From contig JAFXFO010000021.1 in NCBI GenBank assembly GCA_017520425.1, positions 1 to 64,000 on the forward strand: 64,000 bases of DNA. The letters are read 5' to 3'. Below, piece by piece: positions 8,022-59,828 of this stretch. Numbering within the stretch: the first letter of the stretch is position 1; each line of letters starts with the position of its first letter. This DNA comes from Lachnospiraceae bacterium (GTDB lineage Bacteria > Bacillota > Clostridia > Lachnospirales > Lachnospiraceae). A model generated the notes under the pieces. It did no database searches, had not been told where the DNA came from, and saw nothing but the letters and a program-made list of their open reading frames with translations. The translations under genes were made by a program, and so were the position numbers.

Positions 8022-8081
8022 GAGATAGTGTGTGAAGCAATAGTAGGATTTGAAGAGAATGCATAATATCAGGAGGATAAG

Positions 8082-9116
8082 ATGATTTCCTTTGAAAGTG
8101 ATTATATAGCGGGAGCCCATGAGAAGGTGCTCCAAAAGCTGATAGAGACCAATTTAGAGCCCTTAAGTGGGTATGGCAGTGATAAGTATACCAAGAGTGC
8201 CTGTGAGAAGATTAAAGCGGCTTGTGCTTGTGAAGAGGCAGAAGTGTATTTGCTGACAGGCGGTACCCAGACCAATGCCCTGATTATTTCTACCATGCTG
8301 GCGGATTATGAAGGGGTGATTGCGGCAGATACCAGTCATGTGGGGTGCCATGAGGCCGGAGCCATCGAGTATACGGGGCACAAGGTATTGCCCCTGCCCA
8401 ACCATCAGGGAAAGCTGGATGCAGGCGAAGTGGAGCAGTATCTGAAGACCTTTTATGCAGACGGAAACCATGAGCATATGGTGTTCCCGGGGATGGTCTA
8501 TATCTCCCATCCTACGGAGTACGGGACATTGTACAGTAAAGAGGAACTGATGGAGCTGGCAAAGGTTTGTAGTGCCTATAAGATTCCTTTGTACATGGAC
8601 GGTGCACGTCTGGGGTATGGTCTTATGAGTCCTGAGACAAATGTGACTTTACCGGATATTGCAAGACTTGTGGATGTGTTCTATATCGGTGGTACCAAGG
8701 TGGGAGCCCTTTGCGGGGAAGCAGCGGTGTTTACGAAGAACAATGTCCCCAGGCATTTTATGACCCTGGTGAAGCAGCATGGAGCACTGTTAGCCAAGGG
8801 CAGACTTTTGGGTGTGCAGTTTGATACCCTGTTTACCGATGATTTGTATTTTAAGATCAGTCAGCATGCCATCAACATGGCGCAGCGGCTGAAAGCCATT
8901 TTACAGGAGGCGGATTGTACCTTTTATCTGGAATCCCCCACCAATCAGCAGTTTGTGGTGATGGAGAATGAACAGTTAAAAGAGTTTGGCAAGGAAGTGG
9001 CTTACAGCTTCTGGGAGAAGTTTGATGAGAGTCATACAGTGATTCGTTTGGCCACCAGCTGGTCCACCAAGGAAGAGGATTTGGAAAGTTTGAGAAAGAT
9101 TTTGGAGAAGATATAA
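8082..9116 (+). CDS. ltaE: Low-specificity L-threonine aldolase (PLP)
   Basis: Cytoplasmic PLP enzyme of 344 residues cleaving threonine (or allo-threonine) to glycine and acetaldehyde. Family signs are the N-terminal FESDYIAGAHEKVLQKL, the TGGTQTNALI nucleotide-like loop around residue 60, MDGARLGYGL with the PLP-contacting aspartate near residue 170, and YIGGTKVGALCGEA, where lysine 206 should hold PLP. The AGGAGG site is well placed. The stop codon overlaps the start of the next gene by one base (TAATG), so the two are translationally coupled. The beta-eliminating lyase family is broad; threonine aldolase is the best fit. Confidence 0.9.
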   Translation: MISFESDYIAGAHEKVLQKLIETNLEPLSGYGSDKYTKSACEKIKAACACEEAEVYLLTGGTQTNALIISTMLADYEGVIAADTSHVGCHEAGAIEYTGHKVLPLPNHQGKLDAGEVEQYLKTFYADGNHEHMVFPGMVYISHPTEYGTLYSKEELMELAKVCSAYKIPLYMDGARLGYGLMSPETNVTLPDIARLVDVFYIGGTKVGALCGEAAVFTKNNVPRHFMTLVKQHGALLAKGRLLGVQFDTLFTDDLYFKISQHAINMAQRLKAILQEADCTFYLESPTNQQFVVMENEQLKEFGKEVAYSFWEKFDESHTVIRLATSWSTKEEDLESLRKILEKI

Positions 9117-9601
9117 TGGCGAAGCAGAAAGAAATCAAAACCAATGCCATGCGTATTCTGGAGACCATGGGGATTCCCTTTGAAACCCATACCTATGAGT
9201 GTGATGAGTTTATCGACGGAATCCAGATTGCGGATATGCTGGGATTGCCCCACGATAAGGTGTTTAAGACCCTGGTGACGGTGGGTGCCAGCAAGAATTA
9301 TTTCGTATTTGTGATACCCATTGCGGAGGAGCTGGATATGAAGAAGGCGGCGCGAAGCGTGGGTGAGAAGAATGTGGCCATGATTCATGTAAAGGATATT
9401 AACCAGGTCACCGGCTATATCCGTGGAGGCTGTACTGCCATCGGTATGAAGAAACAGTATGTAACCAGAGTGGCGGAGGAAGCGATACTTCAGGATACTA
9501 TCATCGTCAGCGGCGGCAAGCTGGGCATGCAGATTGAGCTTAAACCGGATATGCTTTTGCAGGCGGCAGGGGCGGAGTACGCAGACCTGTTGAAGGAGTA
9601 A
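9116..9601 (+). CDS. ybaK: Cys-tRNA(Pro)/Cys-tRNA(Cys) deacylase (YbaK family)
   Basis: A 161-residue trans-editing protein that hydrolyses misacylated Cys-tRNA(Pro). It has the YbaK/ProX fold signatures: FETHTYE at the N terminus, the HDKVFKTLVT segment with the conserved lysine near residue 46, the central VIPIAEELDMKKAARSVGEKNV stretch, and GGCTAIGMKK followed by ISGGK-like VSGGKLGMQIELKP. Length matches the family (about 155-160). It overlaps the ltaE stop by one base and the CxxCxxCC gene follows after 54 bp, suggesting a three-gene transcript. Start ATG at 9116 is the only sensible choice. Confidence 0.93.
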   Translation: MAKQKEIKTNAMRILETMGIPFETHTYECDEFIDGIQIADMLGLPHDKVFKTLVTVGASKNYFVFVIPIAEELDMKKAARSVGEKNVAMIHVKDINQVTGYIRGGCTAIGMKKQYVTRVAEEAILQDTIIVSGGKLGMQIELKPDMLLQAAGAEYADLLKE

Positions 9602-9655
9602 TGACAGGAACGAAAGGTAACCGGAGGGCCGTCCACCCGGAGAAGGAAAAAAAGT

Positions 9656-10318
9656 ATGAAACGAAATGTGGATTTGTCGGAGATATCCGACGGCAAATTT
9701 TATACGGTAAATGATATGGCTAAGCTGGGCTGTCAGGACTGCGCGGGATGTTCGTCCTGTTGCAAAGGTATGGGCAACAGTATCGTACTGGATCCCATGG
9801 ACGTTTACAGAATCAGTGCAAAAACGGGAATGGGCTTTGAAGGCCTTTTACAGGCCCATATAGAGCTGAATGTGGTAGACGGCATCATATTACCAAATTT
9901 GAAGCAAACAGGCCTAAATGAGGCTTGTGCGTTCTTAAATTCCGAGGGACGTTGCAGTATCCACGAGGCCAGACCGGGAATATGCCGGTTATTTCCCTTA
10001 GGAAGGTACTATGAGGACGGAGATTACAAATATTTCCTGCAGATAAATGAGTGTCAGAAGGATAACCGTACCAAGGTAAAAATCAGCAAATGGGTGGATA
10101 CTCCCGAGTATCCCAAGTACAAGGCATACATACTGAAGTGGCATTATTTCCTGAATGAGGTGGAAGAGCTGTTAAAGACCTCCGGGGATGAAGCCTGGAA
10201 TAAGCAATGCTGTATGCTGATTTTGCAGGCTTTTTACATGAAGAAGTATGATGTGACGAGAGATTTTTATGAGCAATTTGAGGAAAGATACCAGGTAGTG
10301 AAGGAAGCGCTGAGCTGA
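9656..10318 (+). CDS. YkgJ-family cysteine-cluster protein
   Basis: A 220-residue member of the YkgJ (UPF0153, zinc/iron-chelating domain) family. The defining cysteines are visible: CQDCAGCSSCCKG near residues 24-37 followed by CAFL...GRCSIHEARPGICRLFP around residues 92-122 and a later NECQK. The family is thought to bind a metal or Fe-S centre, but the biochemical role is unknown. It follows ybaK with a purine-rich ribosome site (GAGAAGGAAAAAA). A shorter relative lies at 15792 inside the TerB/VWA cassette. No transmembrane segment is apparent. Confidence 0.85.
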   Translation: MKRNVDLSEISDGKFYTVNDMAKLGCQDCAGCSSCCKGMGNSIVLDPMDVYRISAKTGMGFEGLLQAHIELNVVDGIILPNLKQTGLNEACAFLNSEGRCSIHEARPGICRLFPLGRYYEDGDYKYFLQINECQKDNRTKVKISKWVDTPEYPKYKAYILKWHYFLNEVEELLKTSGDEAWNKQCCMLILQAFYMKKYDVTRDFYEQFEERYQVVKEALS

Positions 10319-12300: not shown

Positions 12301-12332
12301 GGATGAAATCTGTCCAAAATATAGTAAAGTAG

Positions 12333-12380
12333 TAGTCCATAATGGGTATGCTGGAAGGATACCTGTTGTGGGCTTTTTTT
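12333..12380 (+). terminator. Intrinsic terminator after the MATE gene
   Basis: AGTCCATAATGGGTAT and ATACCTGTTGTGGGCT form an imperfect 16-bp stem with a nine-base loop, followed by seven T. Confidence 0.85.
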
Positions 12381-12460
12381 AGAAGAGGTGACAAGAAAAA
12401 CAAAACAATTTTACGAATACTCATAAAAATAAAACAAATTGTCTTTCAATAGAAAGTGGA

Positions 12461-12616
12461 ATGTGGTATAATACACATAATTCTATAAAAACGCACGAAT
12501 CGGCAATAGATAAAGGCGTGGGAAAGAATATTTATGTGCAATTTGACGTTGATTTATTAAAAGATAAAGGTTTGAGTAATAAAGTTTATTATATTGACAG
12601 AATGAAGGAGGCCTAA
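12461..12616 (+). CDS. Small ORF or C-terminal gene remnant before the TerB/VWA cassette
   Basis: A 51-codon frame from ATG 12461 to TAA 12614-12616 reads as protein-like sequence ending YVQFDVDLLKDKGLSNKVYYIDRMKEA; the frame stays open upstream to 12392 without an ATG. Its last codons contain the AAGGAGG ribosome site of the next gene. A TATAAT with extended TGG lies at 12464-12472, which would start transcription inside this frame, so it is more likely the 3' remnant of a lost gene than a working one. No family recognised. Confidence 0.4.
   Translation: MWYNTHNSIKTHESAIDKGVGKNIYVQFDVDLLKDKGLSNKVYYIDRMKEA
12464..12472 (+). promoter_or_regulatory. Probable promoter of the TerB/VWA cassette
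   Basis: TGG-TATAAT gives a consensus extended -10 about 145 bp before the first large cassette gene; the -35 region (TTTCAA, 17 bp upstream) is weak, as is usual with an extended -10. Confidence 0.55.
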
Positions 12617-12617
12617 A

Positions 12618-14201
12618 ATGTCACGTAAAAAAAACGATAAACGAGATGATATATTAAATGCAGGAATTGCAGGTGCTTCTTACGAAACGGTACAAAGGTA
12701 TGGTTCTGCAGTAAAGGAACATTTAGTGGCTTATTCGGGAATTGATAGTGAAAAAATAAATTCTACAACAGGAAAAGCGGTTGAGTTACAAAAGAGCTTA
12801 AAAAGTATTAAAACGCAAGGGACGAATGAAGAGTATGCATTCTCAATTAGGCAACAAAAGGCAGGGTGGGCAGCTGAAGTAAAGGATACTGCGAATAGAA
12901 ACGCAGAAAAGATAATAAAGGGAGAGTCTACAAGAAAAATAAGGCATGATGATTTGCCCAATACGCCAGCAAATCATCCATTATATGATCACATTGAAAT
13001 TGATGCTCAAGGTAATATAGTTCAGGGTTCGGGAACACAAATGAAGTTTATAGGAGGAGCGGAAATAGACCCGACAGGCGCTGGAAATGCAGAAAGAGCG
13101 TTGAAAAAACTGCAGTCAAAGGATTTTCAAAAGTATATAGATAATGATGTGAAAATTGAAGTGCCAAAAGATGAATATCAGCAAATGATAGATAAAGCGA
13201 CGGAAGATATTAGTTCGTTGGAAGCACAATTAAAGAAGGTTAAAGCTAGTGGTAATGTCGAAGCAATAGAAAAGTTAGAAAAAAGAATAGAAAACCTAAA
13301 AAAACTCAAGAAGAATCTTCGTCCTAGTTCATTGACACGAAAAGAGGCGCTTGAAGCTGTAGATTCGCCCAAATGGTCTACCACAAAAAGTGTAGCAAAA
13401 GTATCTCATCAAGCAGGACTAAAAACAGCAGGAACGGCTGCTCTTATAGGTGGAAGTGCTTCTTTGATAAGAAATGTTGTAGACATGTGTAAAGGAGAAA
13501 TAGAAGCTGATGAGGCGGCAATGAATGTACTAAAAGACACTGCACAAACGGCAGCTATTGGATATGGTACTGGTTTTGCAGGAAGTGCTATAAAAGGAGC
13601 AATGCAGCATTCTAAGTCACAATACACTCAGGCGCTTGCGAGGACTAATGTTGCGGGCACAATTGTTGCAGTAACAGTGAGTGCTTCAAAAACTTTAAAG
13701 AAGTATTTTGCCGGAGAGATAGATGGAACAGAGTGCCTGGAATCTTTGGGAGAACAGGGAACAGGAATGATTGCCTCGTCAATGTTTGCTGTAATAGGTC
13801 AGGCGGTTATTCCGATACCTATTGTAGGTGGACTTATAGGTGGTATGGTAGGATATGCATTATCTTCAGCAACATATGGTATACTTACTTCTTCACTAAA
13901 AGAAGCGAAGTTGGCGCATGAAGAACGCCTAGCAATAGAAAAGGCTTGTGAAGAACATATTCAAATGATACGAGAGTATCGTACTCAGATGAGTGCAACA
14001 ATAGAAAAGTATTTGTCGGATAAAATGGAAGTGTTTAATGAATCATTTGCTGGGATAAAAGAAGCACTTGAGATTGGGGACGTAGATTTGTTCATTGAGA
14101 GTTCTAATAGTATTATTGATTCCCTAGGAGGAAATAAACCATTTGAATCAATGGATGAATTTAATGAGAAAATGCTAAATGGTGTATCATTTAAACTTTA
14201 A
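12618..14201 (+). CDS. Cassette gene 1: coiled-coil, glycine-zipper protein of unknown function
   Basis: A 527-residue protein I do not recognise as a named family. Residues 1-180 are polar; 190-235 form a clear coiled coil (EDISSLEAQLKKVKAS...); residues 270-290, 345-358 and especially 381-425 are glycine-rich hydrophobic segments (IPIPIVGGLIGGMVGYALSS) that look membrane-inserting or glycine-zipper-like; 430-470 is again helical and charged. There is no signal peptide. It starts with AAGGAGG and opens a run of five same-strand genes with gaps of 13, 12, -4 and 52 bp. Base composition is visibly richer in A+T than the flanking genes, with many ATA and AGA codons, hinting at acquisition. It could be a pore-forming effector, but that is inference. 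Confidence 0.8.
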   Translation: MSRKKNDKRDDILNAGIAGASYETVQRYGSAVKEHLVAYSGIDSEKINSTTGKAVELQKSLKSIKTQGTNEEYAFSIRQQKAGWAAEVKDTANRNAEKIIKGESTRKIRHDDLPNTPANHPLYDHIEIDAQGNIVQGSGTQMKFIGGAEIDPTGAGNAERALKKLQSKDFQKYIDNDVKIEVPKDEYQQMIDKATEDISSLEAQLKKVKASGNVEAIEKLEKRIENLKKLKKNLRPSSLTRKEALEAVDSPKWSTTKSVAKVSHQAGLKTAGTAALIGGSASLIRNVVDMCKGEIEADEAAMNVLKDTAQTAAIGYGTGFAGSAIKGAMQHSKSQYTQALARTNVAGTIVAVTVSASKTLKKYFAGEIDGTECLESLGEQGTGMIASSMFAVIGQAVIPIPIVGGLIGGMVGYALSSATYGILTSSLKEAKLAHEERLAIEKACEEHIQMIREYRTQMSATIEKYLSDKMEVFNESFAGIKEALEIGDVDLFIESSNSIIDSLGGNKPFESMDEFNEKMLNGVSFKL

Positions 14202-14214
14202 GGAGGAAGAAAGT

Positions 14215-14775
14215 ATGGACAGAAGAGGACAAGCAAAGCTTTATTATCTTTACATGATGTCTGATGGGGAAGTTTCTACGAATGAGAAGAAATTATTCAC
14301 CACTATATGTAAAGAGATAGATGTAGATGCTGATGCTAAGAAAGGTATTATTAAGGAATGTGAAAGAATAGCCAAGAGTGAACGACTAAATTGTATGGAA
14401 GTATTATTAAAAAATATAGAAATCAGCTATCCGGGAGAATTATTAAATATTGATTTAAGTAAATATGTTTCAGATAGTGATAAAGCAGCAATAATATGGA
14501 ATTTAGTTAATCTGGGATATGCTGATGCATATTTTACAAATGCTGAAAGAGCAATTGTGGAATTCTTATGTGAGTATTGGGAAATCAACAATTCAGTGTA
14601 TCAAGAAATGATTGATGTTGCTGAGACAATATTATCGCTTGAAAAGCATAGAAAGTGGGTGGAAGAAGAATTGACTGATTCGGAAACAAAGCAGGAAAAG
14701 CTTAAGCAGATTAAGAAAGATATTAAGTATGCACAAGAATCAATAAAGATTACAATTACAGAAATTGGTTTATAG
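14215..14775 (+). CDS. Cassette gene 2: TerB-like helical protein
   Basis: A 186-residue soluble alpha-helical protein. The segment YYLYMMSDGEVSTNEKKLFTTICKEI (residues 8-33) and the second LGYADAYFTNAERAIVEFLCEYW (about 99-121) resemble the two acidic, metal-binding helical repeats of the TerB superfamily (D-G-x-[IV]-x-x-x-E pattern). TerB proteins link tellurite/stress modules to membranes and to VWA (TerY) partners. The chosen ATG 14215 has an AAGGAGG site nine bases upstream; the longer frame beginning at 14179 overlaps gene 1 and lacks a site. The C-terminal 40 residues are a charged coiled coil. Family call is by motif reading and is moderate. Confidence 0.65.
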   Translation: MDRRGQAKLYYLYMMSDGEVSTNEKKLFTTICKEIDVDADAKKGIIKECERIAKSERLNCMEVLLKNIEISYPGELLNIDLSKYVSDSDKAAIIWNLVNLGYADAYFTNAERAIVEFLCEYWEINNSVYQEMIDVAETILSLEKHRKWVEEELTDSETKQEKLKQIKKDIKYAQESIKITITEIGL

Positions 14776-14787
14776 GAGGAGATAATT

Positions 14788-15795
14788 ATGCCGATACCTT
14801 TACTATTTATTGCTGCCGGAGTAGGAACTGGTTTATTAGGAGTAGGAAAAAGTATAAAAGCAGGAATTGATCAGAAGGATGCTAATGAAACCAACAGTGC
14901 AGCTAGAAGTAAAATAGAACATTCTAAAGAGAAGGTAAATATTTGCCGTAAGAACTGTGGAAAGGCAATAGACAACTTAGGACAGAGGAAGATAGCAATT
15001 CTTGACGGAAGTATTAAAGATTTTATTAAAGAATTTGAGATGCTTAATCATGTGGAATTAAGTGAGTCTGTTGGTTTAAATGAACTTCATAAGATGGTAC
15101 TTGATAAAAAGTCCTTTTCTGAATTAAAAGAACTGCAAGGCATGGCGACATCTATGGTAGGTGGTTTGGCTTCCGGAGCTATGGCAGGAGCCCTTACAGC
15201 TTTTGGAGCGTATGGTGCGGCAGGCGCATTGGCAACAGCATCTACCGGGACGGCTATTGCTTCATTGAGTGGAGCAGCAGCAACTAATGCGACACTAGCA
15301 TTTTTCGGTGGTGGTTCGTTGGCTGCTGGTGGTTTAGGCATGGCTGGAGGTACTGCAGTATTAGGCGGTCTTGTTGCAGGTCCGGCGCTGGCAGTTTTAG
15401 GGTTTGTTGTTGGAGCTAAAGCATCTAAGAATTTAGATGAAGCTTATGCTAATTGGGCAAAAGCAAAAGAATTTGAGGAAGAGATGAATGCGGTTGCAGA
15501 TCTCTGTAATGGAATAAGAAGACGCTCAGCTATGTTTAATAGATTTTTGATTCGTCTTCAAACAGTATTTGATCCACTCATTTATGAAATGACTCAGATT
15601 ATTGAGAATAAGGGAACTGATTTTAGAGTATTCTCTGAGGATGAAAAGAAGTGTATTGCATCAGCAATGTCATTGGCTGGCGCAATTAAGGCGATTTTAG
15701 ATACTCCTATTCTTGATGATGAAGGCAATATGACGGAAGAGTCGGGCTTTGTTATTAGTTCGATGCAGAAGAAAGTTGAGGCTATAACTGCATGA
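14788..15795 (+). CDS. Cassette gene 3: glycine-zipper membrane protein
   Basis: A 335-residue protein with an N-terminal hydrophobic helix (PLLFIAAGVGTGLLGVG) and a long alanine/glycine-rich hydrophobic block at about residues 120-212 (GGLASGAMAGALTAFGAYGAAGALATAS...AVLGFVVGA), built from GxxxG repeats typical of glycine-zipper membrane proteins and of colicin- or holin-like hairpins. The flanks (40-110 and 215-260) are helical and charged. It begins with an AGGAGG site 12 bp after gene 2 and overlaps gene 4 by four bases (ATGA). Likely membrane-embedded and partner to gene 1, which has the same kind of segments. Function unknown. Confidence 0.75.
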   Translation: MPIPLLFIAAGVGTGLLGVGKSIKAGIDQKDANETNSAARSKIEHSKEKVNICRKNCGKAIDNLGQRKIAILDGSIKDFIKEFEMLNHVELSESVGLNELHKMVLDKKSFSELKELQGMATSMVGGLASGAMAGALTAFGAYGAAGALATASTGTAIASLSGAAATNATLAFFGGGSLAAGGLGMAGGTAVLGGLVAGPALAVLGFVVGAKASKNLDEAYANWAKAKEFEEEMNAVADLCNGIRRRSAMFNRFLIRLQTVFDPLIYEMTQIIENKGTDFRVFSEDEKKCIASAMSLAGAIKAILDTPILDDEGNMTEESGFVISSMQKKVEAITA

Positions 15796-16052
15796 TATTT
15801 CCTTGTGAAAGATGTGGATTGTGTTGTAAACATATAGAAAAGATACCTGAGCTAAAGGATTTAGATTCAGGAGATGGTAGATGCATCCATCTTCAAGATA
15901 ATAATTTGTGTGCAATATATGAGAGTCGGCCGGATATATGCAGGGTTGATAGGATGTATGAACTGGTATTTGTTAAGCAAATGAGTGAGGATGAATATAT
16001 AAGTATAAACATTGAAGGTTGCAATGCTTTAAAAAGACAATATGTATTATGA
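15792..16052 (+). CDS. Cassette gene 4: mini CxxCxxCC (YkgJ-like) protein
   Basis: An 86-residue protein starting MIFPCERCGLCCKHI, the CxxCxxCC signature of YkgJ-type metal-binding proteins, with the second cysteine set in GRCIHLQDNNLCAIYESRPDICRVDR at residues 29-54 and a late NIEGCNALK. It is essentially the core motif alone, far shorter than the 220-residue relative at 9656. The start overlaps the gene 3 stop by four bases, so it is translationally coupled and an integral part of the cassette. It may carry an Fe-S or zinc centre, perhaps for sensing or for modifying a partner; this is inference. Confidence 0.8.
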   Translation: MIFPCERCGLCCKHIEKIPELKDLDSGDGRCIHLQDNNLCAIYESRPDICRVDRMYELVFVKQMSEDEYISINIEGCNALKRQYVL

Positions 16053-16104
16053 CTAGTGTAAATTGCTTTGTTGGGTAAAATACAAACGAAAAGGAGTAAC
16101 AAAA

Positions 16105-16914
16105 ATGGCGCTAGATATGGGTAAGTATGCCAAAATGGCAAAGGCTGAGCGAAAATTGCCAATTATTTTTATGATTAATGAGAAGATGATTAGAAGTGAA
16201 AAATGGGATGGTGGAATGTATCATCGTGTAATAGCCGATATAATGAAAAATTTAGCTTATAGAAGTGTGGATGCGATAATGTCCGTAGTATCCTTTGGAG
16301 AAGGAGTTCATCTTTGGAGTGGATTTAAAAAATATGATGAATATACTGATAAAGAATGGCCTAAAATGACGACATCAGGAAAATCAGTGTTTAATATCGG
16401 TCTTACATTAGTAAAGGATATGTTAGAGGATATTGATACCACACCGGAAGGTAATTATGATCCGATAGTGGTATTGATTTCAAGTGATGAAGTTTCTCCC
16501 GGTTATAAAAATGAACTTAAAATTCTTAAAAACAATGGTAGATTTAAGGATATTCAGAGAATAGGAATAGCAGACTTATCTTATGACGGAAGTTCTTCGT
16601 ATTGGAGTAACAATTATACAGGCAATAAGGAAGCTCAAGTAAATAGTAAGGCGCCCCAAATTCTTAAAGAGTTTGCTGGAAACAATATTACTTTGTTTAT
16701 TTCTGATATCAAGTATGATAGTTGGTGTACAGTTTCTAATTGGATAACAACAGAATATAAGGATGAAGATACATGGTTCTGTCCAGTGTTGAGTATGATG
16801 GAATTGAGATACACAGAGGATGAAAAACACCATGCAAGAAAGATTTGTGAGAATGAGACATCCGGATATAAAGGCTTGTCTATTTTTAAAGGTTTTGGAA
16901 ATATGTTTACTTAA
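16105..16914 (+). CDS. Cassette gene 5: VWA-like (TerY-like) protein with degenerate MIDAS
   Basis: A 269-residue protein with the layout of a von Willebrand A domain: strand plus MIDAS position LPIIFMINEKMI (residues 18-29), helix, then VDAIMSVVSFGEGVHLW, a TSGKSVFNIGLTLVKDML segment with a TerY-like threonine/serine loop, and PIVVLISSDEVSPGYKNEL in the place of the usual TDGEP motif. The MIDAS DxSxS is replaced by NxKxI, so metal-dependent ligand binding is probably lost. ATG 16105 is preferred over the upstream in-frame start because AAAAGGAG precedes it. Pairing of TerB-like and VWA proteins is a known theme of tellurium/stress systems. Confidence 0.7.
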   Translation: MALDMGKYAKMAKAERKLPIIFMINEKMIRSEKWDGGMYHRVIADIMKNLAYRSVDAIMSVVSFGEGVHLWSGFKKYDEYTDKEWPKMTTSGKSVFNIGLTLVKDMLEDIDTTPEGNYDPIVVLISSDEVSPGYKNELKILKNNGRFKDIQRIGIADLSYDGSSSYWSNNYTGNKEAQVNSKAPQILKEFAGNNITLFISDIKYDSWCTVSNWITTEYKDEDTWFCPVLSMMELRYTEDEKHHARKICENETSGYKGLSIFKGFGNMFT

Positions 16915-41526: not shown

Positions 41527-41560
41527 AGCGGCAGCCCGGAAGGGGTGCCGCTTTTTTTTG
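41527..41560 (+). terminator. Intrinsic terminator after the channel gene
   Basis: AGCGGCA and TGCCGCT pair around a 12-base loop, followed by eight T. Confidence 0.88.
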
Positions 41561-41628
41561 AAAAAGGTGGCATGAATAAGGAGTCTATGGTATTATTAGA
41601 AGAAAAGAAAACAATATGGGGGTATATC

Positions 41629-42564
41629 ATGAGTTCTCAGTATGAATTAGTGCAAAAAATCAAAGAAACTATTAACAATACCTTTATGGGCAAAGAGGAA
41701 GTAGTAGAGAAGGTACTCATCTGTTTGCTGGCAGAAGGTCATATTTTGCTGGAGGATGTACCCGGCGTGGGTAAAACCACTTTGGCGAAAACTCTTGCGA
41801 AGGTAATCGGTTGTACCATGGGACGTATCCAGTTTACACCGGACACTTTACCCGGTGACGTAACCGGTATGTCCGTATATGATATGAAGACAGGGGCGTT
41901 TCAGTATAGGGAAGGTGCGGTCATGAAGCAGGTTCTTCTGGCAGACGAAATCAACCGTACCGCGCCCAAGACCCAGGCCAGCCTGTTGGAGGCTATGGCG
42001 GAGCGCCAGGTGACAGTGGATGGCAATACCTATGCACTTCCCAAGCCGTTTATGGTAATTGCGACACAGAACCCGGTAGAATTTTTAGGTACCTATCCTT
42101 TGCCGGAAGCCCAGATGGACCGTTTTATGATGCGTATTTCCGTGGGCTATCCCGGTGCGGAAGAGGAAGTACGGATGGCGAAAGCGATTTTGAAGGGAAA
42201 TATCATAGAAGCTACGGAAACCGCTTGTACAGAAGAGCAAATTTGCGAATTAATCCATGCGGTATCCCAGGTAAGAGTAAGCGATGCGGTGATTACTTAT
42301 GCAAAGGAAATTGTGGAGCTGACCAGAAAAGAGGAGTCCTTCCTGTATGGAATCAGTCCCCGTGGACTGCTGGAACTTCTCCGTGCTGCCAGAGCCAAGG
42401 CATTTTTAGAGGAAAGAGATTTTGTAAAGCCGGATGATGTAAAGGCAGTGGTTCATGATGTCATGATTCATCGTCTGCCCTTGACATCAGAAGCAAAAAT
42501 GCGGAAAGTAAATGTAGCGAATTTAATCAGCAGTTTGTTAACCAAAGTAAAAGTACCTGTATAG
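41629..42564 (+). CDS. MoxR-family AAA+ ATPase
   Basis: A 311-residue AAA+ chaperone-like ATPase. Walker A is GVGKTTLAK near residue 46, then the QFTPDTLPGDVTGM MoxR signature, Walker B VLLADEINRTAPKTQASLLEAM, sensor 1 FMVIATQNPVEFLGTYPLPEAQMDRF and sensor 2 SPRGLLEL. The start is ambiguous: ATG 41629 after ATGGGGG is preferred, and upstream in-frame ATGs at 41572 and 41587 overlap or touch a terminator. It opens a MoxR-DUF58-transglutaminase operon (10 bp gap), a known conserved arrangement with an inferred role in folding or assembly of extracytoplasmic proteins. Confidence 0.93.
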   Translation: MSSQYELVQKIKETINNTFMGKEEVVEKVLICLLAEGHILLEDVPGVGKTTLAKTLAKVIGCTMGRIQFTPDTLPGDVTGMSVYDMKTGAFQYREGAVMKQVLLADEINRTAPKTQASLLEAMAERQVTVDGNTYALPKPFMVIATQNPVEFLGTYPLPEAQMDRFMMRISVGYPGAEEEVRMAKAILKGNIIEATETACTEEQICELIHAVSQVRVSDAVITYAKEIVELTRKEESFLYGISPRGLLELLRAARAKAFLEERDFVKPDDVKAVVHDVMIHRLPLTSEAKMRKVNVANLISSLLTKVKVPV

Positions 42565-42574
42565 GAGAGATAGG

Positions 42575-43741
42575 ATGAAGTATCGTAAGATTATTTTGGG
42601 TCTGCTTTGGATCCTTTCCCTGGTAGGAATCTCTTTTTACGGTGGTGCCATCAGCTACGGGTTTTTCTGGGCTCTTACCCTGGTGCCGATTATATCCGTT
42701 GTGTATATCTGGGTGGTATTTTTGCAGTTTCGTATTTACCAGGAAATCGAAAGCAGATTCGTTGTTTGTAAACAACCGGTGCCTTATTATTTTACCTTGC
42801 CAAACGAATCCTTTTTTGCGTTTGCTAAATTGAGTGTGAAAATGTATTCTGGTACTTCTTATGTGACAGATTTGCCGGAGACGGAAAGTTATGAAATGCT
42901 GCCGGGAGATTCGGATACATATCATACCAAGCTGATTTGTAAGTACAGGGGAGAGTATGAAGTCGGTGTAAAGGAAGTGGAAATCACGGATTTTTTGGAA
43001 CTGTTCCGTTTTCGTTATCGTGTAAAGGATTCCTTCCGTGCGATAGTATTCCCCAGATTATTACAGATGGATGAGATTAAGAGTCTGGATGATTTTGCCC
43101 AGTTCAGTATGTGGGAATCCATGCAGCAAAAGGAAGAGCCGGATGTAGTTACCAGAGATTATGTGGCAGGGGATTCCATCAAGTATATGCATTGGAAGGT
43201 ATCCGCAAAGGAGCAGAAGTTAAAAGTGCGTAACCTGACCGGCGAAAGAAGGAAGGATGTGCTTTTGGCGTATTCCACGGAACGAGTGGGTAAAATGCCG
43301 GAAGAGTATCTGCCTTTGGAGAACCAGGTTTTAGAGTTGGTTTTGGCTTTGGGGAATCATTTTGTGCAAAAGAAGATTCCCTGTACCGTGCTGCGCAGAC
43401 AGCAGGAAATGAAAGAGTTTCATTTGGAAGTGCCGGGTATATTTGATGAATTGTATCAGGACAGCGGCAAGGTGGATTTTGAAAAGGGTTATTCTACTGC
43501 AGATTTGATACAGCATATGGATATGCTGAAGGTGAAAGGAAATATATCCACCTATATTTTGGTGACTCATAAACTGGAATCGGAATGGCTGGTATTGTTC
43601 CAGGAATGGGTCAATATAGGAATAAAAGTCCTTGTGTATTGGGTGACGGATGAGGATGTGGAAGATTATGTGCGACAGGCAGGTGGCCGTATCCGTATTG
43701 AAAGAATACCCGTAGAGGGAAATTTGGAGGAAGTGTTGTGA
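42575..43741 (+). CDS. DUF58-domain membrane protein
   Basis: A 388-residue protein of the MoxR operon. Two hydrophobic helices at residues 5-22 and 26-50 anchor it; a beta-rich region follows, and the DUF58 signature DYVAGDSIKYMHWKVSAKEQKLKVRNL lies near residues 193-220. DUF58 domains are related to VWA folds and always neighbour MoxR ATPases. The stop TGA overlaps the next gene's ATG by one base (TGATG). A decayed copy of its last 60 bp lies before the second transglutaminase gene at about 46080-46140, evidence that the duplication unit started inside this gene. Confidence 0.9.
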   Translation: MKYRKIILGLLWILSLVGISFYGGAISYGFFWALTLVPIISVVYIWVVFLQFRIYQEIESRFVVCKQPVPYYFTLPNESFFAFAKLSVKMYSGTSYVTDLPETESYEMLPGDSDTYHTKLICKYRGEYEVGVKEVEITDFLELFRFRYRVKDSFRAIVFPRLLQMDEIKSLDDFAQFSMWESMQQKEEPDVVTRDYVAGDSIKYMHWKVSAKEQKLKVRNLTGERRKDVLLAYSTERVGKMPEEYLPLENQVLELVLALGNHFVQKKIPCTVLRRQQEMKEFHLEVPGIFDELYQDSGKVDFEKGYSTADLIQHMDMLKVKGNISTYILVTHKLESEWLVLFQEWVNIGIKVLVYWVTDEDVEDYVRQAGGRIRIERIPVEGNLEEVL

Positions 43742-46068
43742 TGAAACGAATGGCAACCTCCTTATATCCCTTCTTTTATCGTGTGCTTATGACACTGCTG
43801 GTGGTAGTTACCGCATTAGGTTTGGCAGGTCCTTACCTGGGTATGGAAAAGCTTACGATAACTCATTGGGCGATGGCGTTTTGGGTAAGCCTGCTTTTTA
43901 CGATGGTCAGTCTTAGCAAGATTTACCTGAAATTGCTTAGTTTTTTAGTGTTGTCAGTCAGCACAGTGATAATGATTCCTATGCTGGAAATGGCAGGATT
44001 CGGTTCCTTTTATGACAATTATGTGCTTTGGATGAACAGAAAAAGCGGCTTTCAGGAAGAATGGCTCTTAGGTTATGAACTGATACAGATTGCCGGGATT
44101 ACCTTGGTGTGCTATATCCTCCAGCTAATCCTCGAAAAGAAACTGCGACTAAAGTTAGGAACAGCAATCCTTTTGTTTGTGGGGCTGGTGGTCAGTATAT
44201 TTTTCAAAAAAAGAGTTTCCCTTATGGGAATGGCCGGCTCTATGACGTTTATACTGGTGGCTTATACTGAGTATATGCGAATGGTCCGCGGCACAAAAAA
44301 AATGCGTGACGGAAGGGCATATCTGTTGTTTTTGACTCCCTTTATTGCGGCGTATTTTGTTATCATGAGTATCGTACCCATAAGAGAGGACCCCTATGAT
44401 TGGAAACTGGTAAAGGATGTCTATCACAATGTAAAGAAAACCACCATAAGCCTGTGGGAAAGCCTTATCCGAAACGGAGAATCCTTTGACGGGCTGACCA
44501 CCGGTTTTTCTGACAATCCATGGATTGGAGACCAATTGACCAAGCATGAGAGACAGGTAATGACAGTAATAGGGAATCAAAACCTGTTAACCGATGTTTA
44601 TCTGCGTGGCAAGACTTATGACCGGTTTGCTGATTGCCGTTGGCAGGAAACACTGGAAACTAAGGCAGATGAATACCCTATTGATATTTTGGAATTAGTC
44701 TATGGGGTAAAGAGATATGATGAAAGTTGGGAAAATAAATATACGAAGAGAGCGAATCTGAGGATAATATATGAGTATTTCAATACGTCATATACTTTTG
44801 TACCCGGAAAGATGCAGGGAATTCTTAACAAAGAATACAAAGAAGCCGGTGATGTGATGCGTTTCCGTAAGGAAGAGGGATATGGTACGGAGTATGAGGT
44901 GTCCTACTATCAGATGAATTACGGAGCACCGGAATTTAACGAGTTTGCGGAAAGCGTAGGGGATTTACCGGAGGATAAGGATCTCTTTGAAAATGGCATT
45001 ATGATTCTGCCTTTGGAACAGAAAACCCCATATACTTTGGAGGATTTAGAGGAGTATCGTACGGCTATGCAGGCCCAGTACTCGGAGGAAATCACCCTTA
45101 GTCCCAAAGTGCATCAGTATATTGATAAGGTTACGGAAGGCTGTACTACCCAGTGGCAGCGTTTGAAGGCGATCGAAAGTGCTTTGCAGAATATGCATTA
45201 TACAGCTACACCCGGAAATATCCCTAAGTCCGTAAAGAGTGCGGAAGAGTATTTGGATTATTTCCTGTTAAAAAGCCGAAAAGGTTATTGTGCCCATTAT
45301 GCTACTGCATTTGTACTTTTGGCCCGTGCGGAAGGGCTGCCGGCCCGTTATGTGGAAGGCTTCAGGGCGGTCTATAATGATAGCAAGAACATACGTGTTT
45401 ATAATTCCATGGCTCATGCCTGGGCGGAGGTTTATTGGGAAGGTATAGGCTGGGTGATGTTCGAGCCCACGCCTGAGATTGCTGAGTATGCATATTCCGG
45501 ATGGTATGTGCCGGAAGGGGATCAGAGTACTGTAGAGATACGTAAGCCTATCCGATTAAGACCGACAGAATCCGCTGCCGCGGAGGAAGCAAAAGCGATG
45601 TTGGAAGAGATGAACAGGAAAGAGGAAGAGTCCCAAAAGCGACTCCGGATGATGATAGTAAGTGGTGTGCTGACTTTACTGGGAATCTGCCTGATCGTAT
45701 TTTTGGCGAAGCTGCATATCAGTAAATTAAGGTATCGGAAAAAGAATGATACGGAAAAGTTCCTGGCCGATGCAAGGAAGAATTTTTGGCTTCTGGAAAA
45801 GCTGGGATACAAACGACTTCCCTCGGAAACCTTGGATGAATTGGAAGGTAGAATCGTTAGGGAGGCACCAAGGTTGAGTGGCGGAACAAAACGACTTGTG
45901 TTTATACAGGTTTATCAGGAATGCATTTATCGGTCCATGACCATTGAAAAGGAGATGCTGCAGACTGCGTTGTCGGAAAGAGCACAGATGTTGGAGTGTT
46001 TGAAAGAGGAAAATCGTCTGTATTATCCGGTGATTAAAGTATTCCTTATGCTATGGATGGATAAGTAG
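43741..46068 (+). CDS. Transglutaminase-like membrane protein, copy 1
   Basis: A 775-residue membrane protein. Residues 8-220 hold about six transmembrane helices; a long extracytoplasmic region follows with the transglutaminase-like cysteine protease core: KSRKGYCAHYATAFVLLARAEGLPARYVEGF with the nucleophilic cysteine near residue 516, and NSMAHAWAEVYWEGIGWVMFEPTPE with the histidine near 560 and FEPTP in the position of the third residue. A last TM helix near 640-665 precedes a cytoplasmic helical tail. This is the third member of the MoxR-DUF58-transglutaminase triad. It is about 70 percent identical by eye to the next gene. Confidence 0.9.
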   Translation: MKRMATSLYPFFYRVLMTLLVVVTALGLAGPYLGMEKLTITHWAMAFWVSLLFTMVSLSKIYLKLLSFLVLSVSTVIMIPMLEMAGFGSFYDNYVLWMNRKSGFQEEWLLGYELIQIAGITLVCYILQLILEKKLRLKLGTAILLFVGLVVSIFFKKRVSLMGMAGSMTFILVAYTEYMRMVRGTKKMRDGRAYLLFLTPFIAAYFVIMSIVPIREDPYDWKLVKDVYHNVKKTTISLWESLIRNGESFDGLTTGFSDNPWIGDQLTKHERQVMTVIGNQNLLTDVYLRGKTYDRFADCRWQETLETKADEYPIDILELVYGVKRYDESWENKYTKRANLRIIYEYFNTSYTFVPGKMQGILNKEYKEAGDVMRFRKEEGYGTEYEVSYYQMNYGAPEFNEFAESVGDLPEDKDLFENGIMILPLEQKTPYTLEDLEEYRTAMQAQYSEEITLSPKVHQYIDKVTEGCTTQWQRLKAIESALQNMHYTATPGNIPKSVKSAEEYLDYFLLKSRKGYCAHYATAFVLLARAEGLPARYVEGFRAVYNDSKNIRVYNSMAHAWAEVYWEGIGWVMFEPTPEIAEYAYSGWYVPEGDQSTVEIRKPIRLRPTESAAAEEAKAMLEEMNRKEEESQKRLRMMIVSGVLTLLGICLIVFLAKLHISKLRYRKKNDTEKFLADARKNFWLLEKLGYKRLPSETLDELEGRIVREAPRLSGGTKRLVFIQVYQECIYRSMTIEKEMLQTALSERAQMLECLKEENRLYYPVIKVFLMLWMDK

Positions 46069-46137
46069 AAAAAGGTCGGCAGAAATATGCATCCGCATCG
46101 TAAAGATACCCATTGAGGGGAATTGGGAGGAAGTGCT

Positions 46138-48477
46138 ATGATGAAACGTATGGTAACATCATTATATCTCATCTTTTATCGTATGTTTATGGCTTTGTTG
46201 GTAGTAGTCATAGCAGTAGCCATGACCGGAAGCTGGTTAGGACTTCAGAAACCAACGATTTTACATTGGATTATAGCCCTTTGGGTAGCTTCTCTTTTGA
46301 CCATAGTCAGTTTGGGGAAGCTCTACCAGAAAATGTTGAGTATCGTAGTGTTGGCGGTCAGCACTTTAGTAATGATTCCTTTGATGGAAATGGCAGGAAT
46401 CGGTTCCTTTTATGACAGTTATTTCCTTTGGATAGGAAGAAAAAACGGATTTCAGGAAGAATGGATTTTAGGATATGAGCTAATACAGATTGTATGGATG
46501 ACTCTTGTGTGTTATATCATCCAGCTAATCCTGGAGAAGAACCTTAAACTAAAGTTAGGAACAGCAGCCCTTTTGTTTGTGGGACTGTTGGTCAGTATGC
46601 TTTTGGGTGAAAAGGGTTCCCTTATGGCAATGGCCGGCATCATGACTTTTATACTGGTTACTATGGCTGATTACATGAGAAGCATTCGAAGTACAAAGAA
46701 AAATCATGATACCAGGGCGTATCTGTTGTTTTTGACTCCTTTTATATTGTCGTACTTTATTCTTATGAGCATAGTACCTATACGGGAAGTGCCTTATGAC
46801 TGGAAGTTTGTGAAGGATATTTATCACAATTTGAGGGAAAAGACCATTACCTTGTGGGAAAGTATCGTCCGAAATGAGGAAGAGTTTGATGATGTAACGG
46901 TCGGCTTTTCTGACAGTCCCTGGCTGGGAGATCAGCTAATAAAGGAGGACAGGCAGGTTATGACCATAACCGGTGACCGAAACCTGCTGACAGATATTTA
47001 TCTGCGTGGTAAGACCTACGATTGGTTTGACAACTGCCGGTGGCAGGAAACTTTGGAAACAAAGGCAGATGAATACCCCATCGATATTTTGGAATTAGTC
47101 TACGGGGTAAAGAGATATGACGAAAGTTTGCAGAATAATTATGCGAAGAGAGCCAATCTGAAAATAAGATATGAGCATTTTAATACGGCATATGCTTTTG
47201 CACCCGGAAAGATGCATGGTATTGCTAACAAAGAATACAAAGAGGCCGGTGATGTGATGCATTTCCATAAAGAAGAGGGATATGGTACGGAATATGAGGT
47301 ATCCTTCTTCCAAATGAATTACGGAGTGCCGGAATTTGATGCATTTGTGGAAAGTGTAGGGGATTTGCCGGAGGACGAGGAAATCTTTGAAAATGGTATT
47401 ATGATGCTGCCCGTGGAATTGAAGGGGAAATATACCCTGGCGGATTTGGAGGAATATCGTGAGGCCATGCAGAACCAGTACGGTCAGGAGATTACCCTCA
47501 GTCCTACAGTGCAACAGTATATTGATAAGGTTACAGAAGGCTGTACTACCCAGTGGCAACGGTTGAAGGCGATTGAAAAGGCTTTGCGGAGTATGCATTA
47601 TACGGCAGAGCCCGGTGCAATCCCTAAGACTGTAAAGACACCGGAGGAGTATTTGGATTATTTTCTGATGGAAAGCAGAAAGGGGTATTGTGCCCATTTT
47701 GCTACTGCATTTGTACTTTTAGCCCGTTCGGAAGGATTACCGGCCCGCTATGTGGAAGGCTTCCGCCTGCCCTTTAATATCAGCCGGACGATCAGAGTTT
47801 ACAGTTCCATGGCTCATGCCTGGGCAGAGGTTTATCTGGAAGGTGTAGGCTGGGTGACCTTTGAACCCACCCCCGGTTATGGGGATTATGCATACTCCGG
47901 ATGGCTGGTGCAGGAGGAAGATGAAAGCACCTTGGAGGAAAGTGCTCCAATCAGAGGGGGAGCTACGGAATTTTTCCTTGAGGAAGAAGCAGAAGAGTTG
48001 TTGGAAGTGGTAAATGAGGAAGAAGAAGCACGAAAAGCGGAAAATATGCGACGCCTGTTGGTGATGGCATATGGTGCTCTGATTCTACTGGGAATCTGCC
48101 TGATTGTCTTTTTGATAAATCTTCTGATCAGCAAAATAAAGTATCTGAAAAAGAACGATACAGAGAAGTTCCTGACTGATGTAAGAAAGAATTTGTGGCT
48201 TCTGGAAAAGCTGGGATTCAAACGACTTCCCTCAGAAACCTTGGATGAATTGGAGGATCGAATCGGTAGGGAGGCTCCGCGGTTGACCAGAGGAACCAAA
48301 CAGCTTGTATTTATAAAGGTTTATCAGGAATATATTTATCGGTCCAAGGCCATTGAAAAGGAAATGCTGAAAACAGCACTTGCAGAAAGAGCACAGATAT
48401 TATCGTGTCTGAAGAAGGAAAAACGCCTGCATTATCTGCGGATTACAGTGGGCCTTATGCTTTGGGTAGATAGGTAG
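46138..48477 (+). CDS. Transglutaminase-like membrane protein, copy 2
   Basis: A 779-residue paralogue of the preceding gene with the same plan: N-terminal TM helices, core SRKGYCAHFATAFVLLARSEGLPARYVEGF with the cysteine, SSMAHAWAEVYLEGVGWVTFEPTPG with the histidine, a C-terminal TM helix and the DUF4129-like tail (KNLWLLEKLGFKRLPSETLDELEDR). Long stretches are nearly identical to copy 1 (for example KADEYPIDILELVYGVKRYDES), while the extreme termini and a patch after residue 600 diverge. ATG 46138 follows GGGAGG. Both active sites look intact, so both copies are probably functional. Confidence 0.9.
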   Translation: MMKRMVTSLYLIFYRMFMALLVVVIAVAMTGSWLGLQKPTILHWIIALWVASLLTIVSLGKLYQKMLSIVVLAVSTLVMIPLMEMAGIGSFYDSYFLWIGRKNGFQEEWILGYELIQIVWMTLVCYIIQLILEKNLKLKLGTAALLFVGLLVSMLLGEKGSLMAMAGIMTFILVTMADYMRSIRSTKKNHDTRAYLLFLTPFILSYFILMSIVPIREVPYDWKFVKDIYHNLREKTITLWESIVRNEEEFDDVTVGFSDSPWLGDQLIKEDRQVMTITGDRNLLTDIYLRGKTYDWFDNCRWQETLETKADEYPIDILELVYGVKRYDESLQNNYAKRANLKIRYEHFNTAYAFAPGKMHGIANKEYKEAGDVMHFHKEEGYGTEYEVSFFQMNYGVPEFDAFVESVGDLPEDEEIFENGIMMLPVELKGKYTLADLEEYREAMQNQYGQEITLSPTVQQYIDKVTEGCTTQWQRLKAIEKALRSMHYTAEPGAIPKTVKTPEEYLDYFLMESRKGYCAHFATAFVLLARSEGLPARYVEGFRLPFNISRTIRVYSSMAHAWAEVYLEGVGWVTFEPTPGYGDYAYSGWLVQEEDESTLEESAPIRGGATEFFLEEEAEELLEVVNEEEEARKAENMRRLLVMAYGALILLGICLIVFLINLLISKIKYLKKNDTEKFLTDVRKNLWLLEKLGFKRLPSETLDELEDRIGREAPRLTRGTKQLVFIKVYQEYIYRSKAIEKEMLKTALAERAQILSCLKKEKRLHYLRITVGLMLWVDR

Positions 48478-56959: not shown

Positions 56960-57973
56960 ATGCCATTTAAAATCGTCAGAAACGATATTACCAAAATGCA
57001 GGTGGATGCCATTGTTAATACGGCCAATAGGTTGCCGATTTATTCGGATGGGACGGATAGTGCAGTCTATGAGGCTGCAGGCGTGGAAGAATTGCTGGCC
57101 GAGAGACGTAAAATTGGCACTTTGGAAGAAGGTCAGGCGGCTATCACACCGGGCTTTCGATTACCGGCTAAATATATTATTCATGCCGTGAGTCCCATGT
57201 ACATAGATGGGGAAAGCGGTGAAGAGGAGCTGCTTCGTTCCTGTTATCGAAAGAGCCTGAAGCTGGCCTGTGAAAAGGGGTGTAAAAGTATTGCGTTTCC
57301 TTTGATCGCGACCGGAAGCTTCGGATATCCCAAGGAAGAGGGCATGCGTATCGCCTTGGATGAAATCAATGCTTTTCTGATGAAGCAGGAGATGCACATC
57401 TACCTGGTAGTATTTGATACGGAGGCCACCAGACTGGGCCGCAATGTTTACCCGGACCTGGAAGAATATATCGACAAGCACTATGTAGAAGTGCAAAAGA
57501 AGAAGGAATATTGGTTCCCTCTTCAGGCCGCTGTGGCGGCACCTCAGATGGGTGATGCTTGCAGGGAGGAGCCGGATGAGGAGGAACTTTTCGAGGAAAG
57601 GGAATCCGCCTTGGATGAGCGTCTGAAGCATCTGACAGATACCTTTCAAGAGTATCTGATGTATTTGATTGAGAGTAAGGGTCTGAGTAATGCGGATGTC
57701 TATAAAAGTGCTTATCTGACCAAGCAGCTGTTTTCCAAGATTAAGCTGAATCCGGACTATCATCCGGACAAAGGCACTGCCCTGCGACTTTGCGTAGGTG
57801 CGCAGCTGAACCTGGACGAAACCAAGGATTTGCTGGCCAGAGCAGGCTATGCGTTGTCTCCCTGTGACAAAAGAGATGTGATATTTTCCTTCTTTATCGA
57901 GCAGGAGATTTACGATATGTTGGATATCGATATCGCGTTGGAAGAGTATGGTTTGCCATGCTTTATAGAATAG
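56960..57973 (+). CDS. Macro-domain protein with C-terminal helical domain
   Basis: A 337-residue protein. Residues 1-165 are a macro (ADP-ribose-binding) domain: DAIVNTANRLPIYSDGTDSAVYEAAG carries the usual asparagine and glycine-rich loop, and IAFPLIATGSFGYPKEE is the second signature. Residues 215-337 are an unrelated helical domain (LTDTFQEYLMYLIESKGLSNADVYKSAYLTKQLFSKIKLNPDYHPDKGTALRLCVGAQLNLDETKDLLARAGY), repressor- or HTH-like in look and unknown to me. A terminator separates it from the VWA gene, but it lies next to an ADP-ribosylglycohydrolase two genes on. It may remove or read ADP-ribose marks. Confidence 0.88.
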   Translation: MPFKIVRNDITKMQVDAIVNTANRLPIYSDGTDSAVYEAAGVEELLAERRKIGTLEEGQAAITPGFRLPAKYIIHAVSPMYIDGESGEEELLRSCYRKSLKLACEKGCKSIAFPLIATGSFGYPKEEGMRIALDEINAFLMKQEMHIYLVVFDTEATRLGRNVYPDLEEYIDKHYVEVQKKKEYWFPLQAAVAAPQMGDACREEPDEEELFEERESALDERLKHLTDTFQEYLMYLIESKGLSNADVYKSAYLTKQLFSKIKLNPDYHPDKGTALRLCVGAQLNLDETKDLLARAGYALSPCDKRDVIFSFFIEQEIYDMLDIDIALEEYGLPCFIE

Positions 57974-57982
57974 GGGATTTTT

Positions 57983-58012
57983 AAGGTCGCTTTCAGGGCG
58001 ACCTTCTTTTTT
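57983..58012 (+). terminator. Terminator after the macro-domain gene
   Basis: AAGGTCGC and GCGACCTT pair around a seven-base loop; CTTTTTTA follows. Confidence 0.85.
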
Positions 58013-58095
58013 AGACTTTGTGATATAGTTACCTCAGAAACAAGATAACAGGTCCACCGAAGTGAAAAAGCTTCGGAGAAAGTGAGGAAACTATT

Positions 58096-58761
58096 ATGAA
58101 GAAGGGTTTAACAGAAATCGTATTTATTTTGGACAGAAGCGGTTCCATGAGAGGTTTGGAAGCGGACACCATCGGAGGCTACAATTCTTTGATTGAGAAG
58201 CAGAAAAAGGAAGAGGGAGAAGCGTATATCTCCACAGTACTTTTTGATGACCGGACGGAGGTACTTCACGACAGAAAGAAGCTGGATGAAGTGGAGCCTA
58301 TGACCGACAGAGAGTATTATGTGCGCGGCTGTACGGCCCTGCTGGATGCGTTGGGCGGTGCTATCCACCATATCGGCAATGTACATAAGTATGCCAGAGA
58401 AGAGGACAGACCGGAGAAGACGCTGTTCATCATCACCACTGACGGACAGGAAAATGCCAGTCGTCAGTACTCCTATGACAAGGTGAAAAAGATGGTGGAA
58501 CGACAGCAGAAAAAGTATGGCTGGGAGTTTCTATTCCTGGGTGCCAACATTGATGCAGTGTCAGAAGCCGGCAGAGTGGGCATACGGGCCGATAGAGCGG
58601 TGAAATACGAATGTGACAGCCAAGGTACCAAGGTGAACTTTAAGGCCCTAAATAAGGCTGTAAGCAGCGTTAGAAGTTGTGCAGCACCGGAAGCACTGGA
58701 GGAGGCATTGGTCGGCTGGGATGAGGAAATCAGAGAAGACTATCAGAAGAGAAGCAGATAA
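58096..58761 (+). CDS. von Willebrand A domain protein
   Basis: A 221-residue, single VWA domain protein. The MIDAS is intact: DRSGSM at residues 12-17 (DxSxS), the threonine in RGCTALLDAL near residue 80, and the aspartate in FIITTDGQENAS near 118. It has no signal peptide or membrane segment, so it acts in the cytoplasm as a metal-dependent protein-binding scaffold. It lies between a terminator-ended macro gene and, 26 bp downstream, the ADP-ribosylglycohydrolase gene with which it is probably co-transcribed. Its partner is unknown. It contrasts with the degenerate VWA at 16105. Confidence 0.92.
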   Translation: MKKGLTEIVFILDRSGSMRGLEADTIGGYNSLIEKQKKEEGEAYISTVLFDDRTEVLHDRKKLDEVEPMTDREYYVRGCTALLDALGGAIHHIGNVHKYAREEDRPEKTLFIITTDGQENASRQYSYDKVKKMVERQQKKYGWEFLFLGANIDAVSEAGRVGIRADRAVKYECDSQGTKVNFKALNKAVSSVRSCAAPEALEEALVGWDEEIREDYQKRSR

Positions 58762-58787
58762 AGAGTGGTAAGAAGGGAGAAAGGTTT

Positions 58788-59756: not shown

Positions 59757-59828
59757 TGCTTTACGAAAACAAATAATATATGTAAAATAAAATGGTAGGA
59801 ACCCATTGTTTTACTGGTAGGATAAAGC

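Follow-up and report, generated by a model that had tools for sequence, protein, structure and literature searches.

The window, by which we mean the whole 64,000-nucleotide stretch of Lachnospiraceae DNA that was analysed, carries five open reading frames between positions 12618 and 16914, all on the + strand. These genes, and the features that bound them, are as follows.

about 12336..12382, + strand: imperfect hairpin followed by a T run, probably terminating the MATE gene that lies upstream (by eye)
12618..14201, + strand: gene 1, PDC-M09B-like, 527 aa (PADLOC match)
14215..14775, + strand: gene 2, TerB-like protein, 186 aa (Pfam TerB match)
14788..15795, + strand: gene 3, PDC-M09A-like glycine-zipper membrane protein, 335 aa (PADLOC match)
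15792..16052, + strand: gene 4, mini CxxCxxCC protein (PF03692), putatively metal-binding, 86 aa (Pfam match)
16105..16914, + strand: gene 5, rare accessory protein of VWA fold that lacks the MIDAS metal motif, 269 aa
16974..17012, no strand: perfect inverted repeat of 17 bp where two convergent genes meet, likely a terminator for both (repeat scan)

This confirms as a whole the five-ORF observation of the first-pass annotation: the genes lie where they had been described, closely packed on one strand, with an overlap of four bases between genes 3 and 4. Since genes 1 to 4 recur elsewhere in the same order, chance is ruled out. The set is also A+T-rich compared with its flanks, as had been claimed, G+C content being 36.2% for 12301-16914 versus 44.0% in the rest of the window. 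By gene, it ranges from 0.31 to 0.41 in four cassette genes (gene 4 was below the size limit of the script and is left out), compared with a mean of 0.454 (sd 0.035) across 44 other genes. Of the terminators proposed at either end, the downstream one likely corresponds to the repeat, whereas the upstream one is less firm, being absent from the scan's list. The remnant-like ORFs proposed at the flanks are also less firm; the one covered by translation is the open stretch in front of gene 1 (12464-12616). Gene 2 best starts at 14215, with AAGGAGGAAG in front, an alternative ATG at 14179 overlapping gene 1; gene 5 best starts at ATG 16105 rather than TTG 16063, with AAAGGAG in front and the homologue alignment beginning at MALDM.

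Two of the five proteins match a named candidate system. Gene 3 matches PDC-M09A (PADLOC model PDLC04407, E 2.4e-28, residues 30-295) and gene 1 matches PDC-M09B (model PDLC04408, E 6.3e-18, residues 136-478), the two genes lying on one strand with gene 2 between them. PMC11811056 describes PDC systems as candidates that stem from Payne et al. (2021) and are unpublished, and the name PDC-M09 was not found in the literature searched. The models found for this PADLOC-DB candidate are named A (PDLC04406, 04407) or B (04408, 04409, 04410), the adjacent PDLC04405 and PDLC04411 being M08B and M10A, and there is no TerB, CxxCxxCC or VWA model among them. Part of the set, genes 1 and 3, thus already bears a name, though as a candidate, and no M09 model was found for the other three genes. 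Judged by these profiles, the cassette would belong with PDC-M09 and may work like it.

Genes 2 and 4 turned out to be what they had been taken for. Gene 2 scores above the curated cut-off for TerB (PF05099, E 7e-6, 26.8 bits; cut-off 24.4), and when its family profile is compared with the PDB the top row is a COG3793 tellurite resistance protein, at an E-value of just 0.048. Gene 4 likewise exceeds the cut-off for CxxCxxCC (PF03692, E 5.3e-9, 37.1 bits; cut-off 23). A second, longer CxxCxxCC-type protein is encoded at 9656-10318 of the window, 2.3 kb 5' of the cassette, and the profile of gene 4 picks it up (E 1.6e-4). In gene 3, hydrophobic and GxxxG segments accompany the motif STGTAIAxLSGAAATNATLAFFGGGSLAAGGLG, as read from alignments.

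GxxxGxxxG-like motifs are present in both gene 1 and gene 3, and to that extent the notion of two pore-like glycine-zipper proteins stands. Gene 1, however, is more convincingly described as an enzymatic domain with a membrane segment attached than as simply another pore protein, given its conserved E...D...QxK residues and a block of confident AlphaFold prediction (pLDDT 79-95 across aa 21-270). The residues in question (E87, D111, D124, Q141 and K143, invariant in alignments) lie in an N-terminal domain of approximately aa 20-250. They were compared with the conserved E...D...(E/Q)xK pattern and alpha-beta-beta-beta-alpha-beta core of the PD-(D/E)XK superfamily, for which fold matches are weak; structural comparison returned nuclease matches, all of them weak, including Lamassu LmuA (9hr5), which may be chance. 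We consider it fairly likely that this domain is a PD-(D/E)XK nuclease. In contrast to LmuA and other PD-(D/E)XK enzymes, a membrane segment comes after it in gene 1: a helical, hydrophobic glycine-zipper region (approximately 250-440) with the motif GQxxIPIPxxGxxxG and a hydrophobic segment at 381-418, followed by a C-terminal helical domain. At other loci the N-terminal slot holds an M48 peptidase instead, so that different effector domains occupy one position. In a further class of gene 1 (class II; for example 10529-12916 in L047 and 5857-7470 in L054), conserved HH and D motifs (NHHLADLAHHPTPLGL, HLVSDMGGS) mark a membrane-like domain.

To what extent is the gene set conserved? Scanning genome contigs with an alignment of gene 3 matched at least 593 stretches, 377 of which were confirmed and the best 80 kept; the locus sets draw in part on 20 loci (L035-L054), two of which duplicate others (L046/L061 and L048/L063). 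Note that loci were picked by gene 3 alone, so that the presence of any other gene constitutes independent evidence. Among the 70 of these 80 loci that have at least 2.5 kb before gene 3, gene 1 is found on the same strand within 2.5 kb in every case (downstream in L126), and in 61 a TerB gene directly precedes gene 3, between genes 1 and 3. Nine loci fall outside the TerB count (L071, L073, L097, L099, L104, L117, L126, L127 and L129), though at L104 and L099 there is an ORF that is short and weakly TerB-like. Genes 1 to 3 also co-vary in their distances (r 0.776, n=70; 0.886, n=70; 0.78, n=59; 0 of 999 permutations each). It is close to certain what the gene set consists of and that it is conserved, and TerB is, as a new observation, the standard third part of the gene 1-gene 3 pair.

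The remaining two genes are less constant. Gene 4 directly follows gene 3 in 18 of the 75 loci, among these 80, whose sequence extends 0.5 kb or more past gene 3. When gene 1 is sorted into types by a simple rule based on motif and length, gene 4 is found at 14/25 loci with the window's type, 2/15 with a short or unclassified gene 1 and 3/5 without a gene 1 call, as opposed to none of 18 with an M48-type and none of 17 with an 'other' type gene 1 among the best 80 loci. Gene 5 is missing from all 80 (five of which have less than 0.5 kb of downstream sequence). Of the two grounds on which the first-pass annotation was to be rejected, the first (gene order not kept elsewhere) does not apply, TerB lying between genes 1 and 3 as counted above, and the second (matches to a system already named) applies to two of the five proteins. 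The five genes as a set are not conserved, gene 5 recurring once.

The spread of the set is patchy. In the relatives set of 61 genomes, gene 3 is matched in 4, a count that takes in the own genome and in which two matches are partial, and the PADLOC model matches in 33 of 295 genomes of the order, many weakly. A gene 3 tree of 77 rows, the window plus 76 loci after incomplete or odd-length rows were dropped, covers eight phyla by row titles, and the phylum labels need 10 changes where the minimum possible is 7, a pattern that suggests transfer but is no proof of it.

The genomic neighbourhood has an accessory character. In one relative (G032), a mere 43 bases separate the MATE gene (71% protein identity) from the pair of ABC genes behind it (75 and 77%), which in the window are found on the far side of the cassette, so that this genome has the flanking genes without the cassette. 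Because the window's gap between MATE and ABC genes additionally contains XRE and MarR genes, the comparison marks an accessory region rather than an exact junction. The only other near-full-length DNA match to the MATE gene in the 61 genomes, in G346, has different neighbours. Just upstream of the loci, 82 proteins were found at 55 of 58 loci; of the 80 scanned, two long ones being left out, 9 have an HTH_26 match and 4 a WYL match, and WYL-like neighbours form one cluster in 12 loci. Among 120 distant control proteins, neither family had two or more Pfam members and one WYL protein was seen by PADLOC, although a control made up of proteins of at least 100 aa is no guide to small HTH proteins. 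PADLOC families number 98 among 120 near versus 29 among 120 far proteins, drawn at random from 332 and 209 with proteins of 700 aa or more left out; most near rows among the 25 families listed per set are PD-T4-6 models, and we regard the defence-island enrichment as weak. The first-pass description of a mobile defence or stress island is in this way partly supported: the region is accessory and probably defence-related.

Three further observations concern these surroundings. At L052, L076, L105, L124 and L208 the cassette has a Ser/Thr-kinase-like gene and its HTH-like partner nearby. At 56960-62870 of the window, macro-domain-like, VWA (with an intact DRSGSM), ADP-ribosylglycohydrolase-like and 1013-aa WYL-like genes lie in a row, by eye, resembling an ADP-ribose-linked conflict cassette. 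At 41545-48477, again by eye, there is a row of a MoxR-like ATPase, a DUF58-like and two similar transglutaminase-like genes.

A compact operon in an accessory location whose genes 1 to 3 co-vary might be a toxin-antitoxin or addiction module of an island or plasmid, with genes 1 and 3 toxic unless TerB is made. Gene 1-like genes do indeed occur on two plasmids, one of which also carries gene 3: an Azospirillum plasmid has WYL, gene 1 and gene 3 one after another, close to a RecD-like helicase, and a gene 1-like protein comes after an ATP-binding protein on R. albus pRUMAL01. However, these are just two of 72,556 plasmid records, and the large, multi-component make-up also speaks against addiction, which we judge unlikely.

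Gene 5 bears on another alternative. Its VWA homology rests on matches to VWA proteins (E down to 5e-8 in a small database, 1e-5 to 9e-4 per genome) rather than on the sub-threshold Pfam score (VWA_2, E 0.011, 16.8 bits; cut-off 27). That the domain is degenerate can be affirmed, the MIDAS motif DxSxS being replaced by NEKMI and, in the homologue at L208, likewise by INEK. The latter gene lies directly 3' of a divergent gene 1-gene 3 pair, in which gene 1 is of class II (E 6e-37) and gene 3 encodes 666 aa (E 4e-26). This gene 3 homologue (8063-10063) has a repetitive C-terminal extension that by eye resembles a parallel beta-helix. Eleven of 397 genomes of the family have a match to gene 5, own genome included, the best other match, which is the L208 homologue, showing 52% identity over residues 1-242 (49% by full alignment), and a class-wide search of 391 genomes at 1e-10 found its own copy alone. 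Searching 294 further genomes of the order gave distant VWA relatives (22-28% identity) in 14; of five such loci read by eye, four are kinase-VWA-PP2C and one (L144) gave no clear map. Gene 5 differs from the VWA protein of these TerY-like operons in that it has no MIDAS and no kinase or PP2C gene adjoins it in the window. Elsewhere (1247-8911 in L209, 7404-15001 in L210), VWA, WXG100-like, large EssC-like, second VWA, PP2C-like and kinase-like genes make up, by eye, a single operon, present in two genera.

The combination of TerB with a VWA protein whose distant relatives adjoin kinase- and PP2C-like genes recalls Ter systems, which PMC7824862 proposes to join a ligand-binding TerB with sub-membrane VWA parts. 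The cassette might accordingly be a stress module, responding to metal or to damage of the envelope in order to shield the membrane, with genes 3 and 1 as a sub-membrane scaffold. Yet inspection by eye of the window's ORFs beside the cassette turned up no TerC, TerD or TelA, the VWA gene is lacking at all 80 of the best gene 3 loci, and a patchy spread together with nuclease and peptidase domains better matches conflict. We therefore find such a stress role improbable.

Polymorphic toxins consist of a varied enzymatic domain joined to a conserved remainder. Gene 1, with its varied N-termini, recalls this layout and could be an interbacterial effector that gene 3 helps across membranes while TerB and the small proteins act as immunity proteins or chaperones, and glycine zippers do depolarise membranes in the T7SS toxin EsxX (according to PMC12744356), just as other VWA relatives of gene 5 sit in the WXG100/EssC-like operons seen by eye; but the enzyme domain of gene 1 is N-terminal, PADLOC places the gene 1-gene 3 pair with defence, and no secretion marker or operon was noticed by eye beside the cassette among the gene maps listed, so that this is the least probable alternative. 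Long glycine-zipper segments are shared with EsxX and TelE, going by partial descriptions of these toxins, but the architecture differs and no secretion domain was recognised in the cassette proteins.

The function suggested by these comparisons is probably anti-phage. Shango and Bunzi, anti-phage systems according to the accessible text of PMC10250203 and PMC10952713, have a TerB-domain component; by Pfam, the five proteins here include neither the helicase nor the ATPase of Shango, and the likeness to Bunzi is drawn from its description. Our preferred reading, held tentatively and at somewhat less than even odds, is of a PDC-M09-type, TerB-gated, membrane-anchored effector cassette acting in phage defence. 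Gene 1 would be the effector, a metal-dependent PD-(D/E)XK-like nuclease anchored by its glycine-zipper segment and C-terminal helical domain, with gene 3 as its glycine-zipper membrane partner. TerB would keep the pair inactive and sense the trigger. On infection, the complex might open the membrane or depolarise it, might deliver the nuclease to DNA, or might do both; the phage would be halted, and the cell probably sacrificed. The membrane step is plausible by analogy with EsxX, whose glycine-zipper domain is reported in PMC12744356 to depolarise the membrane even from the cytoplasmic side. Genes 4 and 5 would be accessories, the former binding metal and the latter, having no metal site, perhaps serving as a protein-binding adaptor.

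What is new here is the conserved TerB, the effector slot with different enzymes, the type-limited CxxCxxCC partner and the recurrent MIDAS-less VWA adaptor. One may speculate further that these amount to a modular immune platform, a possibility for which we found no description in the literature searched: a core of gene 3 zipper, TerB gate and gene 1 C-terminus, in which the killing domain (PD-(D/E)XK nuclease, HNH-like nuclease, M48 peptidase or second membrane class) may have been swapped over evolution and the MIDAS-less VWA protein may be an occasional input. If so, TerB would be a general gate of a membrane-bound effector, a testable role for TerB in defence systems. For the TerB domains of proven anti-phage systems, the table row seen in the review (PMC10952713) gives no activity; here TerB is set between two partners in several phyla, beside varying enzyme domains, which makes its role directly testable, and a candidate of two proteins, itself unpublished, would grow into a defined system of three to five genes for which a catalytic site is predicted.
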